In this document: positions 62,146 to 64,000 of the stretch, one piece after another | How positions within the stretch are numbered: the first letter of the stretch is position 1 | How the letters are laid out: each line of letters starts with the position of its first letter | Assembly (NCBI RefSeq): GCF_900099805.1 | Contig: NZ_FNDR01000010.1 | Coordinates: 1 to 64,000, forward strand | DNA from: Variovorax sp. OV700 | GTDB taxonomy: Bacteria > Pseudomonadota > Gammaproteobacteria > Burkholderiales > Burkholderiaceae_C | Reading direction: 5' to 3' | Length of the DNA: 64,000 bases | Program-made: the position numbers and the translations under genes | Notes under the pieces: model-generated | What the model was told of the DNA's origin: nothing | What the model saw: only the letters and a program-made list of their open reading frames with translations | Databases searched by the model: none

Positions 62146-62823
62146 TCAGAAGAACCCGAGCACGTCGCGCAGGCTGCTGCCGATGCGTTCGGGCTCAGTG
62201 CCGAGTTCTTCGAAAGGAAGCTGGTAGCGGTTGACCCAGAGCGTGCGAAATCCGTACCAGGTGGCGCCGAGCGCGTCCCAGCCGTTGCAGCTCACGAAGG
62301 CGATCTGGTTCGGTTGCAGGCCGGTGGCCGTGACGCCGAGCCGGTAGGCCTCGGGGTGTGTCTTGTACTTGCGGATGCCGTCCACGCTCAACACGTGGTC
62401 GAGCAGGCCGTCGAGGCCGGCGCTGCGAACGGCGGCGTCGAGCATGCCGGGGTCGCCGTTCGAGAGAATGCCGGTGACGACGCCGCGGCTCTTGAGTAAC
62501 TTCAGCACGTCGCGGCATTCGGGAAAAGCCGTGAGCGTGCGGTACTGGTCCATCAGTTGCTGCTCGGCGGTCTCCGTCAGGGCGAGGCCGAGCCGCTTGC
62601 AGGTGTAGCGCAGTGCGGCGCGCGTGAGTTCGCCAAAGGGCTGGTAGTGCGCGCCGTCGTCGCTGGTGGTCACCAGGCGGGTGTATTCGATCTGCTTGTC
62701 GCGCCAGCCCGCGGCCAGCGCCTGGCCCTGGCCGGCGAACAGCCGCTCGGCCGTCTGCCCGACGCTGTACACGTCGAACAAGGTGCCGTATGCGTCAAAG
62801 AGAACTGCCCCGGGATGGTCCAT
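62146..62823 (-). CDS. Haloacid dehalogenase, type II
   Basis: HAD-superfamily hydrolase of 225 residues with the L-2-haloacid dehalogenase pattern. VLFDAYGTLFDVYS has nucleophile Asp10. GILSNGDPGML is motif II, YKTHPEAYRLGV provides the Lys of motif III, and VSCNGWDALGATWYGFRTLWVNR is motif IV. The classic dehalogenases have the same spacing and length. Activity on 2-haloacids would give 2-hydroxyacids. It lies between iclR and glcB on the same strand with gaps of 103 and 60 bp. A related phosphatase-like role cannot be excluded. Confidence 0.87.
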   Translation of the reverse strand: MDHPGAVLFDAYGTLFDVYSVGQTAERLFAGQGQALAAGWRDKQIEYTRLVTTSDDGAHYQPFGELTRAALRYTCKRLGLALTETAEQQLMDQYRTLTAFPECRDVLKLLKSRGVVTGILSNGDPGMLDAAVRSAGLDGLLDHVLSVDGIRKYKTHPEAYRLGVTATGLQPNQIAFVSCNGWDALGATWYGFRTLWVNRYQLPFEELGTEPERIGSSLRDVLGFF

Positions 62824-62926
62824 GCGTTGACTTTATTCGATACTTTGTCGGTGAGTAAGAGCCGAAACCGGGATTTATCAGTGACAAAAATGAAGGTAAT
62901 TGCGGAAGCCTGCATGCATCCCGGTG

Positions 62927-63667
62927 TCAGATCATTGCGCTGAGTTCGCGCGCCGCGGCGCACACCGGTTCGATGTGGCGCTCGTCGTAGCGGTGGGCCG
63001 GCATGGTCAGCGTGAGCGCCGCGGCCAACTGTCCGTCGGCATGGAACACCGGCGCCGAAATGCCCGCCAGCTCGGCCGTGCGGTCGCCCACCAGCGCGCA
63101 GTAGCCCTGGGCGCGAATGGTGTCGTACAGCTTGCGTTCCCTGCCGCCGCTCGGCCGCTCGGCCTCCGGCCCGAAGGCGATCAGCACCCGCGCCCCGGCA
63201 CCCCGGTCGTTAGACAGCACGTCGCCCGCGCACACATGGTCGCGCACGACGTGCGACGAATCGACGCGGAACTGGCACAGCCGCACCCAGCTTTCGCCCT
63301 GGTCCTGCCGCACGTGGTATGCCGCGCTCTCGCCGGTAGCGGCGGCCAGCGCGCGCAGCATCGGCAGCACGACGCGGTCGAGCGAAAGCGACGCCGCATA
63401 CAGGCCATGCAGGCGCGCGACCTCGGCGCCCAGCGCGTAGCGGCCATCCTCCTGCCGACGGATCAGCCGCGCATGTTCGAGCGATGCCAAAAGGCGCAGC
63501 ACCGTGCTCTTGTAGAGCTGCGTGCGCTCCGCAAACTGCGCCAGCGACAGCGCCTCGTCGCCGGGCTGGAAAGCCGAGAGCAGGCTCAGCGCGCGGTCGA
63601 CCGCGGCGGCGCCGCCGGGGGCGGCGTTGAGGTCGGACACGGATTCAGCTTGGGCTTTGCGCGGCAT
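62927..63667 (-). CDS. IclR-family transcriptional regulator
   Basis: 246 residues. The N-terminal winged HTH reads AVDRALSLLSAFQPGDEALSLAQFAERTQLYKSTVLRLLASLEHARLIRRQEDGRYALGAEVARLHGLYAAS, and the effector domain ends CALVGDRTAELAGISAPVFHADGQLAAALTLTMPAHRYDERHIEPV. It is divergent from the HMG-CoA lyase gene. Its own predicted promoter overlaps a perfect palindrome at 63710-63726, so it is likely autoregulated and controls the lyase gene. The ligand may be an organic acid, as is usual for IclR proteins of catabolic operons. Confidence 0.92.
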   Translation of the reverse strand: MPRKAQAESVSDLNAAPGGAAAVDRALSLLSAFQPGDEALSLAQFAERTQLYKSTVLRLLASLEHARLIRRQEDGRYALGAEVARLHGLYAASLSLDRVVLPMLRALAAATGESAAYHVRQDQGESWVRLCQFRVDSSHVVRDHVCAGDVLSNDRGAGARVLIAFGPEAERPSGGRERKLYDTIRAQGYCALVGDRTAELAGISAPVFHADGQLAAALTLTMPAHRYDERHIEPVCAAARELSAMI

Positions 63668-63682
63668 GGGAAAGGGGTCGGC

Positions 63683-63711
63683 TTGACAGCCTCGTGGATC
63701 GACGGTTTAAT
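63683..63711 (+). promoter_or_regulatory. Strong sigma-70 promoter for the HMG-CoA lyase gene
   Basis: TTGACA at 63683-63688 is a perfect -35, and TTTAAT at 63706-63711 is a five-of-six -10, with 17 bp between. Transcription would start near 63718, inside the palindrome at 63710-63726, and reach the ATG at 63792 after a 70-nt leader with AAGGAGA. Confidence 0.8.
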
Positions 63712-63726
63712 TCTGTTTAACAGAAT
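63710..63726. promoter_or_regulatory. Perfect 17-bp palindrome, probable IclR operator
   Basis: ATTCTGTT (63710-63717) and AACAGAAT (63719-63726) are exact inverted copies around one base. The site covers the start point of the plus-strand promoter and touches the -10 of the minus-strand promoter. A bound regulator would block both. IclR-family sites are usually palindromes of this size. Confidence 0.75.
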
Positions 63727-63752
63727 ATAGTTCTGCAAGATAGAACAGTCAA
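63724..63752 (-). promoter_or_regulatory. Strong sigma-70 promoter for iclR
   Basis: On the minus strand TTGACT (63752-63747) and TATATT (63729-63724) are separated by 17 bp, both five-of-six matches. Transcription would start near 63717, about 50 bp before the iclR ATG at 63667. This promoter and the plus-strand one point at each other and overlap by a few bases. Confidence 0.75.
63730..63746. promoter_or_regulatory. Second, weaker inverted repeat next to the IclR operator
   Basis: GTTCT at 63730-63734 and AGAAC at 63742-63746 form a 5-bp inverted repeat with a 7-bp spacer. TTCTG also occurs at 63711 and 63731, exactly 20 bp apart, two helical turns. The site fills the spacer of the iclR promoter. 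It could be an auxiliary site for the same regulator. Confidence 0.45.
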
Positions 63753-63791
63753 GAGATTCCTCAGGCGATCCCCCATAAGGAGACAGATCCG

Positions 63792-64000
63792 ATGACACCC
63801 CCCGACGTCCTCATCAGCGAGGTCGGCCCGCGCGACGGCCTGCAGTCGGTCAAGGCCACCATGCCCACGGCCGACAAGCTGCGCTGGATCGACGCGCTCT
63901 ACGCTGCCGGTGTGCGCGAAATCGAAGTCGCATCCTTCGTGCCCGCGAAGCTGCTGCCGCAGATGGCCGACGCCGCCGAGGTGGTGCGCCACGCCGTCAC
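63792..64000 (+). CDS. Hydroxymethylglutaryl-CoA lyase, N-terminal part (partial)
   Basis: The window ends inside this gene; about 69 codons are visible. The beginning, VLISEVGPRDGLQSVKATMPTADKLRWIDALYAAGVREIEVASFVPAKLLPQMADAAEVV, matches HMG-CoA lyases of the DRE-TIM metallolyase family, with the metal and substrate residues in GPRDGLQ and EVASFV. The enzyme cleaves HMG-CoA to acetyl-CoA and acetoacetate, the last step of leucine catabolism. AAGGAGA lies about 8 bases before the ATG. Regulation by the divergent IclR protein is likely. Confidence 0.9.
   Translation, partial: MTPPDVLISEVGPRDGLQSVKATMPTADKLRWIDALYAAGVREIEVASFVPAKLLPQMADAAEVVRHAV

Follow-up and report, generated by a model that had tools for sequence, protein, structure and literature searches.

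As a rule, a regulator of the IclR family controls its own gene together with one or two neighbouring operons (Suvorova and Gelfand 2021; PMC8222616). In the part of that survey available here, which counts 181 orthologous groups, the operators are palindromes of the types GTT-11-AAC and WTT-11-AAW, and the motif of IclR group 1 is a 17-bp palindrome resembling GKTYCRYW3-4RYGRAMC. Where IclR sites occur in tandem, their centres lie 18–22 nt apart, a spacing that the survey connects with tetramers bound to a single face of the DNA. The locus described here, from Variovorax sp. OV700, carries two 17-bp palindromes, termed O1 and O2, between an iclR gene and a gene for a lyase resembling 3-hydroxy-3-methylglutaryl-CoA lyase (HMGL). 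Both palindromes share the length, the symmetry and most positions of the group 1 motif as given in that part of the survey (PMC8222616). They differ from it at one symmetric base pair, with TTCT...AGAA in place of the consensus TTYC...GRAA (a fifth base of T/A, not C/G), and many relatives of the locus carry TTCC or GGAA in one half-site. The centre distance of 20 bp lies within the 18–22 nt range (PMC8222616).

The window, that is, the whole 64,000-nt stretch of DNA that was analysed, contains iclR and the start of the lyase gene close to its end (Table 1). The product of iclR belongs to the IclR family by both of its domains (PF09339 at 45.7 bits against a cut-off of 22, and PF01614 at 47.4 bits against a cut-off of 24) and by its length of about 250 aa. 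None of the seven listed NCBIfam models reaches its cut-off for this protein, and the IclR equivalog PRK11569 scores 33.3 bits, with a cut-off of 380. By NCBIfam, the linked regulator is not the orthologue of the E. coli glyoxylate-bypass IclR.

On the plus strand, the lyase gene is followed by a gene for a class III (CaiB-type) CoA-transferase (PF02515) and then by a LysR-type regulator. The NCBIfam model matched by the lyase bears the name hydroxymethylglutaryl-CoA lyase, and the nearest solved structures are HMG-CoA lyases (1ydo). For the CoA-transferase, the nearest solved structure is succinate-hydroxymethylglutarate CoA-transferase (9br6), and no listed CoA-transferase model reaches its cut-off. 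We take it as possible that the two enzymes are an (R)-citramalyl-CoA lyase and a citramalate CoA-transferase.

Beyond iclR, in the direction of its transcription, come genes for a type II haloacid dehalogenase and for malate synthase G. A separate conserved element is found upstream of these genes, GTATCRAATAAAGT on the minus strand (window 62830-62843 and 62881-62900). It occurs no more than 150 nt upstream, on the minus strand, in 44 of the 68 regions scanned, and most of the 45 regions printed have an ATTAC...TTTTTGTCAC...GATAAATC-like block shortly ahead of it. It may be a promoter or a regulator-binding site serving the malate synthase unit.

The intergenic region contains two predicted promoters of the sigma-70 type that face each other and overlap. 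On each strand, a -35 and a -10 hexamer are separated by 17 nt, within the range of 16–18 nt (TTGACA and TTTAAT on the plus strand, TTGACT and TATATT on the minus strand), and both pairs, with their spacers, lie where a preliminary description of this DNA had placed them. With starts set 7 nt past each -10, transcription would begin at about 63718 (+) and about 63717 (-), which agrees with the earlier claim of starts about one base apart. The palindrome O1, written as halves ATTCTGTT-T-AACAGAAT, had also been located correctly; it looks like an operator of the IclR type, as had been proposed, and overlaps both predicted -10 regions. The second palindrome, O2, was missed in that description. 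Its centre is exactly 20 bp from that of O1, and it takes up all 17 nt between the two hexamers of the iclR promoter, whose -35 starts at the next base.

These hexamers had been called unusually strong, which suits the plus -10, TTTAAT, less well than it does the plus -35 and the minus promoter. In TTTAAT, the second-position A, regarded as the most critical base of the -10 hexamer, is missing. A consensus promoter scan of 62800-63900 reports one promoter, on the minus strand, compared to 0.2 expected from shuffles, and it misses the plus promoter because of this lack of an A at the second position.

Table 1. Features of the iclR/HMGL locus in window coordinates
Feature	Position	Strand	Basis or remark
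iclR, IclR-family regulator, 246 aa	62927..63667	-	N-terminal HTH_IclR and C-terminal IclR_C
Intergenic region between iclR and HMGL-like lyase gene	63668-63791		
HMGL-promoter -35, TTGACA	63683-63688	+	Read from sequence; conserved in relatives
HMGL-promoter -10, TTTAAT	63706-63711	+	Shares 2 bp with left end of O1
Operator O1, ATTCTGTTTAACAGAAT	63710-63726, centre 63718	no strand	Sequence; pattern and matrix conservation
iclR-promoter -10, TATATT	63724-63729 (read 63729->63724)	-	Overlaps right end of O1
Operator O2, GTTCTGCAAGATAGAAC	63730-63746, centre 63738	no strand	Pattern and matrix conservation
iclR-promoter -35, TTGACT	63747-63752 (read 63752->63747)	-	Abuts O2 directly
HMGL-like lyase gene	63792..64000, running on to contig position 64730	+	NCBIfam NF004283 above cut-off; Pfam PF00682

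The isolated 37-nt segment from O1 to O2 folds well (-10.9 kcal/mol, z -4.0), as would be expected if the palindromes were RNA hairpins, in a leader structure or a terminator, rather than protein sites. This explanation is scarcely credible, since the predicted transcripts start inside O1, so that neither contains O1 whole, and the predicted leaders are no more stably folded than shuffled ones. An RNA hairpin or terminator was rejected on these leader scores (z -1.0 and -0.5) and on a terminator scan of 62800-63900, which found none.

The tandem pair stands out from its surroundings. In a matrix derived from close relatives, O1 scores 26.8 and O2 scores 20.3, while the next best position in the window scores 6.3. 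These three values come from a repeat without the window's own sites; the matrix used to score distant loci, promoters, left-out loci, paralogues and named loci was trained on the close set with the window's own sites included. The tandem pattern occurs at one place in the 6.48-Mb genome, and its reversed control at none. No further target is named by pattern in a wider regulon: the single-site pattern has 15 forward matches, O1 and O2 included, compared to 14 for the reversed control, and the 15-mer with up to 3 mismatches has 18 and 12 matches in the own genome compared to 18 and 12 for the control.

The same genome encodes IclR paralogues with 42% identity. The paralogue on contig C21 has nothing above 3.4 in the matrix, and the one on contig C13 has only weak, different sites. 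Upstream of the latter (L039, C13 19486-19546), three weak palindromes, ATGCTGTTTCACAGAGT, GGTCCGTTTGGTGGACC and ATTGTACGGAACGGAAC, are spaced 24 and 20 bp apart, and possibly constitute a different operator proper to that paralogue.

Similar palindromes occur elsewhere in this genome. At C29 119616-119662 (L231 1501-1547), ATTCCATTAATCAGAAT and ATTCCGTTCAATGGAAT lie 30 bp apart, flanked by an ORF on the plus strand whose N-terminus is IclR-like and an ORF on the minus strand resembling an ABC transporter, both named by eye; these are probably another IclR operator. A single such palindrome, GTTCTACTGAACAGAAT, is found at C21 22339-22355 (L226 1501-1517), just before a plus-strand ORF that by eye resembles an aldehyde dehydrogenase, and an IclR paralogue lies about 8 kb away, at C21 30018.

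An orthologue of iclR (E 1e-60) is present in 76 of the 101 genomes of the genus Variovorax, the own genome included. All 78 congeneric iclR matches were fetched and examined, as were 30 wider-family matches with loci, 15 more, and the two own paralogues; G052:C95, G009:C109 and the remaining wider-family matches, at about 43% identity or less, were left out. The 123 iclR rows represent 121 distinct loci, L036 and L037 being second copies, and HMGL is divergent within 300 bp in 109 of these. The set of orthologous iclR/HMGL intergenic regions comprises 108 members, with 13 of the 121 loci kept out. It is divided into a close set of 67, with at least 74% IclR identity, and a distant set of 41, of which 6 are still in the genus.

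The preliminary description had named conservation in orthologous iclR/HMGL regions as a check, and the palindrome is indeed kept. The strict pattern, with palindromes exactly 20 bp apart, is found in 73 of the 108 regions, and in 64 of the 67 close loci. By matrix, the best site is above the 99.9% shuffle level in all 41 distant loci, and in 38 of the 41 the runner-up is found at a distance of exactly 20 bp, compared to 2.7% in shuffles. The second site is weak in many distant loci (with a score below 0 in 9 of 41), and O2 is the better conserved of the two palindromes in distant relatives. In the close set, conservation drops to near background past the iclR -35 towards HMGL.

Outside Variovorax, the 20-bp tandem is found upstream of iclR in 16 of 20 named loci, e.g., in Comamonas, Ramlibacter, Rhodoferax and Pollutimonas. 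The four loci without it are all from Acidovorax (L210, L211, L212, L214), in which L200 and L206 do have the tandem. These 20 are the 21 non-Variovorax loci among 64 named ones, minus L217, where the start of iclR is missing; they come partly from the same genomes as the 108 regions and were scored irrespective of HMGL adjacency. L155, which adjoins HMGL and has an incomplete iclR, lies outside the set of 108 and carries the pair. The 12 other left-out iclR loci are situated away from HMGL or are cut by a contig end, and by matrix a good site is present in three (L150 at a contig end, L152 and L047) and absent in nine. The motif therefore follows only part of the subfamily.

The connection of the pair with the neighbouring regulator can be examined in Variovorax genomes that lack it. 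Twenty-five congeneric genomes have no iclR match at 1e-60; 19 of them provide 20 HMGL loci, and the other six have no HMGL match of comparably high identity. The pair is absent in 19 of these 20 loci, malate synthase G occupies the iclR side in 14, and a worn half of O2 remains, by eye, in L242, L253 and L254. Since iclR and the operator adjoin, one deletion could take both, and the iclR-less loci are thus support for the connection and not proof of it. The remaining locus, L238 (genome G215), retains O1 and O2 before its HMGL gene, and one weaker IclR match, 44% identical, is found elsewhere in its genome. This locus may reflect a recent loss of iclR or control by another protein.

L238 is also what favors a reading in which the palindromes serve some other regulator and the neighbouring iclR has no part in their function. 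That is very improbable, given the absence of the pair from the other iclR-less loci, the likeness of motif type and spacing to published IclR sites, and the occurrence of the pair in a second context. In 300 genomes of the order, the strict tandem pattern is found only in the own genome and in two genomes of another family (0 of 300 for the reversed control). The two other-family pairs, L256 and L257, match the window pair at 33 and 32 of 37 bases, and in both an IclR relative (47–49% identity, about 150 aa) is encoded about 1 kb away. In L256, where the pair lies at about 1440-1600, a gene for a TctC-type transporter receptor stands directly behind it, followed by the IclR gene, and in L257 another gene separates the pair from the related iclR. 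This IclR subfamily may serve several operons for the uptake or use of small acids. Taken together, the near-identical pair close to a related iclR with a different neighbor, the conservation, and the losses in iclR-less loci make it very probable that the linked IclR has its operator in O1-O2.

The two promoters differ in how far they are conserved. The plus -35, at a fixed distance from O1, is within one mismatch of TTGACA in all 67 close loci and in 26 of the 41 distant loci, and the spacer of this promoter in the close loci is 17 nt in 23 and 18 nt in 44. Its -10 reads TNTAAT throughout the close set (67 of 67), with N being C in 41 loci, T in 21, G in 5 and A in none. At the fixed place, a plus -10 within one mismatch is found in 10 of 41 distant loci, and these often show, by eye, an A-containing -10 in a slightly shifted register. 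A possible reason for the consistent absence of A at N in the close loci is selection against a full-strength promoter. On the minus strand, a -35 with at most one mismatch is present in 66 of the 67 close loci, against 6 of the 41 distant ones. The minus -10 in close loci is TATATT in 26 and TAAATT in 30 (together 56 of 67), and it deviates from TATAAT at no more than one position in 27 of 67 close and 3 of 41 distant loci. Of the two, the HMGL promoter, whose -10 overlaps O1, looks ancestral, while the distribution of the minus -35 suggests that the iclR promoter facing it is mostly an elaboration of Variovorax.

This distribution bears on polymerase interference, which had been proposed for the two promoters. 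The facing arrangement is kept in Variovorax, but the rarity of the minus -35 in distant loci means that the switch does not in general include interference. It is conceivable, if on the unlikely side, that the promoters are mutually exclusive and that polymerase competition has been selected in Variovorax, a reading that is compatible with an IclR operator. The two overlapping promoters have predicted starts 1 bp from each other, and both -35 boxes are kept throughout the close set, with a single exception on the minus strand. However, 35 of the 41 distant loci show no minus -35, which the switch therefore does not need, and the arrangement may simply follow from packing autoregulation onto the same operator. 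A more specific proposal, which we regard as rather unlikely, is that an ancestral one-promoter operator became a two-way switch in Variovorax. Facing polymerases would then exclude each other, an IclR tetramer on O1-O2 would arbitrate, and the HMGL -10, lacking its second A, would have been tuned to be weak, giving the regulator promoter the advantage whenever neither promoter is occupied.

It is highly likely that O1 and O2 together are the operator through which the adjacent IclR represses the lyase/CoA-transferase operon and, in Variovorax, iclR, until an effector releases it; binding, repression, the tetramer and the effector are the parts of this scheme that we infer. Two IclR dimers would occupy the two palindromes, whose centres are about two turns apart and thus roughly on the same face of the helix. 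O1 would cover the -10 end and start region of the HMGL-CaiB promoter plus the -10 of the iclR promoter, and O2 would lie in the iclR-promoter spacer, just downstream of the HMGL start. From this placement over both promoters, bound IclR would be expected to repress the operon and, in Variovorax, its own gene. The preliminary description had a single dimer blocking both genes. The position of O1 allows such a joint block, but what relatives share is a tandem pair of operators spaced by 20 bp, on which two dimers would be expected instead of a single one. The effector that releases IclR would be a hydroxy acid related to the operon substrate and activated by the CoA-transferase, e.g., 3-hydroxy-3-methylglutarate or citramalate, which is a reasonable guess from the enzyme families.

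Activators and dual regulators exist in the IclR family, according to the part of the survey available here (PMC8222616), and sequence alone would be compatible with activation at this locus too. An activating or dual role for IclR at the HMGL promoter is nevertheless decidedly unlikely. In Variovorax, O1 overlaps the -10 and the predicted start and O2 lies downstream, which are places for a steric block, and a similar geometry is seen by eye in many distant loci and in L256 and L257. Repression by the linked IclR remains the preferred reading.

The analysis assigns a regulator, a tandem operator and a target operon (HMGL-type lyase and class III CoA-transferase) in Variovorax and its relatives, with strong comparative support. 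It also supplies naturally occurring loci that range from a single promoter to a facing pair over the same operator, and in these selection for polymerase interference can be tested. Among the literature matches listed, no title concerns this operator. GenR of Corynebacterium glutamicum is a described regulator with a similar operator, ATTCC-N7(5)-GGAAT, the N7 form of which has the same 17-bp length (PMC8222616, Table 1, in the part of the survey available here). Its half-site nearly equals that of the ATTCT-N7-AGAAT found here, with one base per half-site different, while its targets are the use of 3-hydroxybenzoate and gentisate, and it belongs to another phylum (PMC8222616). O1-O2 is a known kind of operator and, as regulation, ordinary. 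Where a regulator and its target diverge from overlapping promoters that share an operator, one operator region controls both genes. Compared to such pairs, the less ordinary element of the present locus is that its predicted promoters face each other with starts about 1 bp apart, an arrangement that is real in the sequence, is kept in Variovorax, and is found mainly there.
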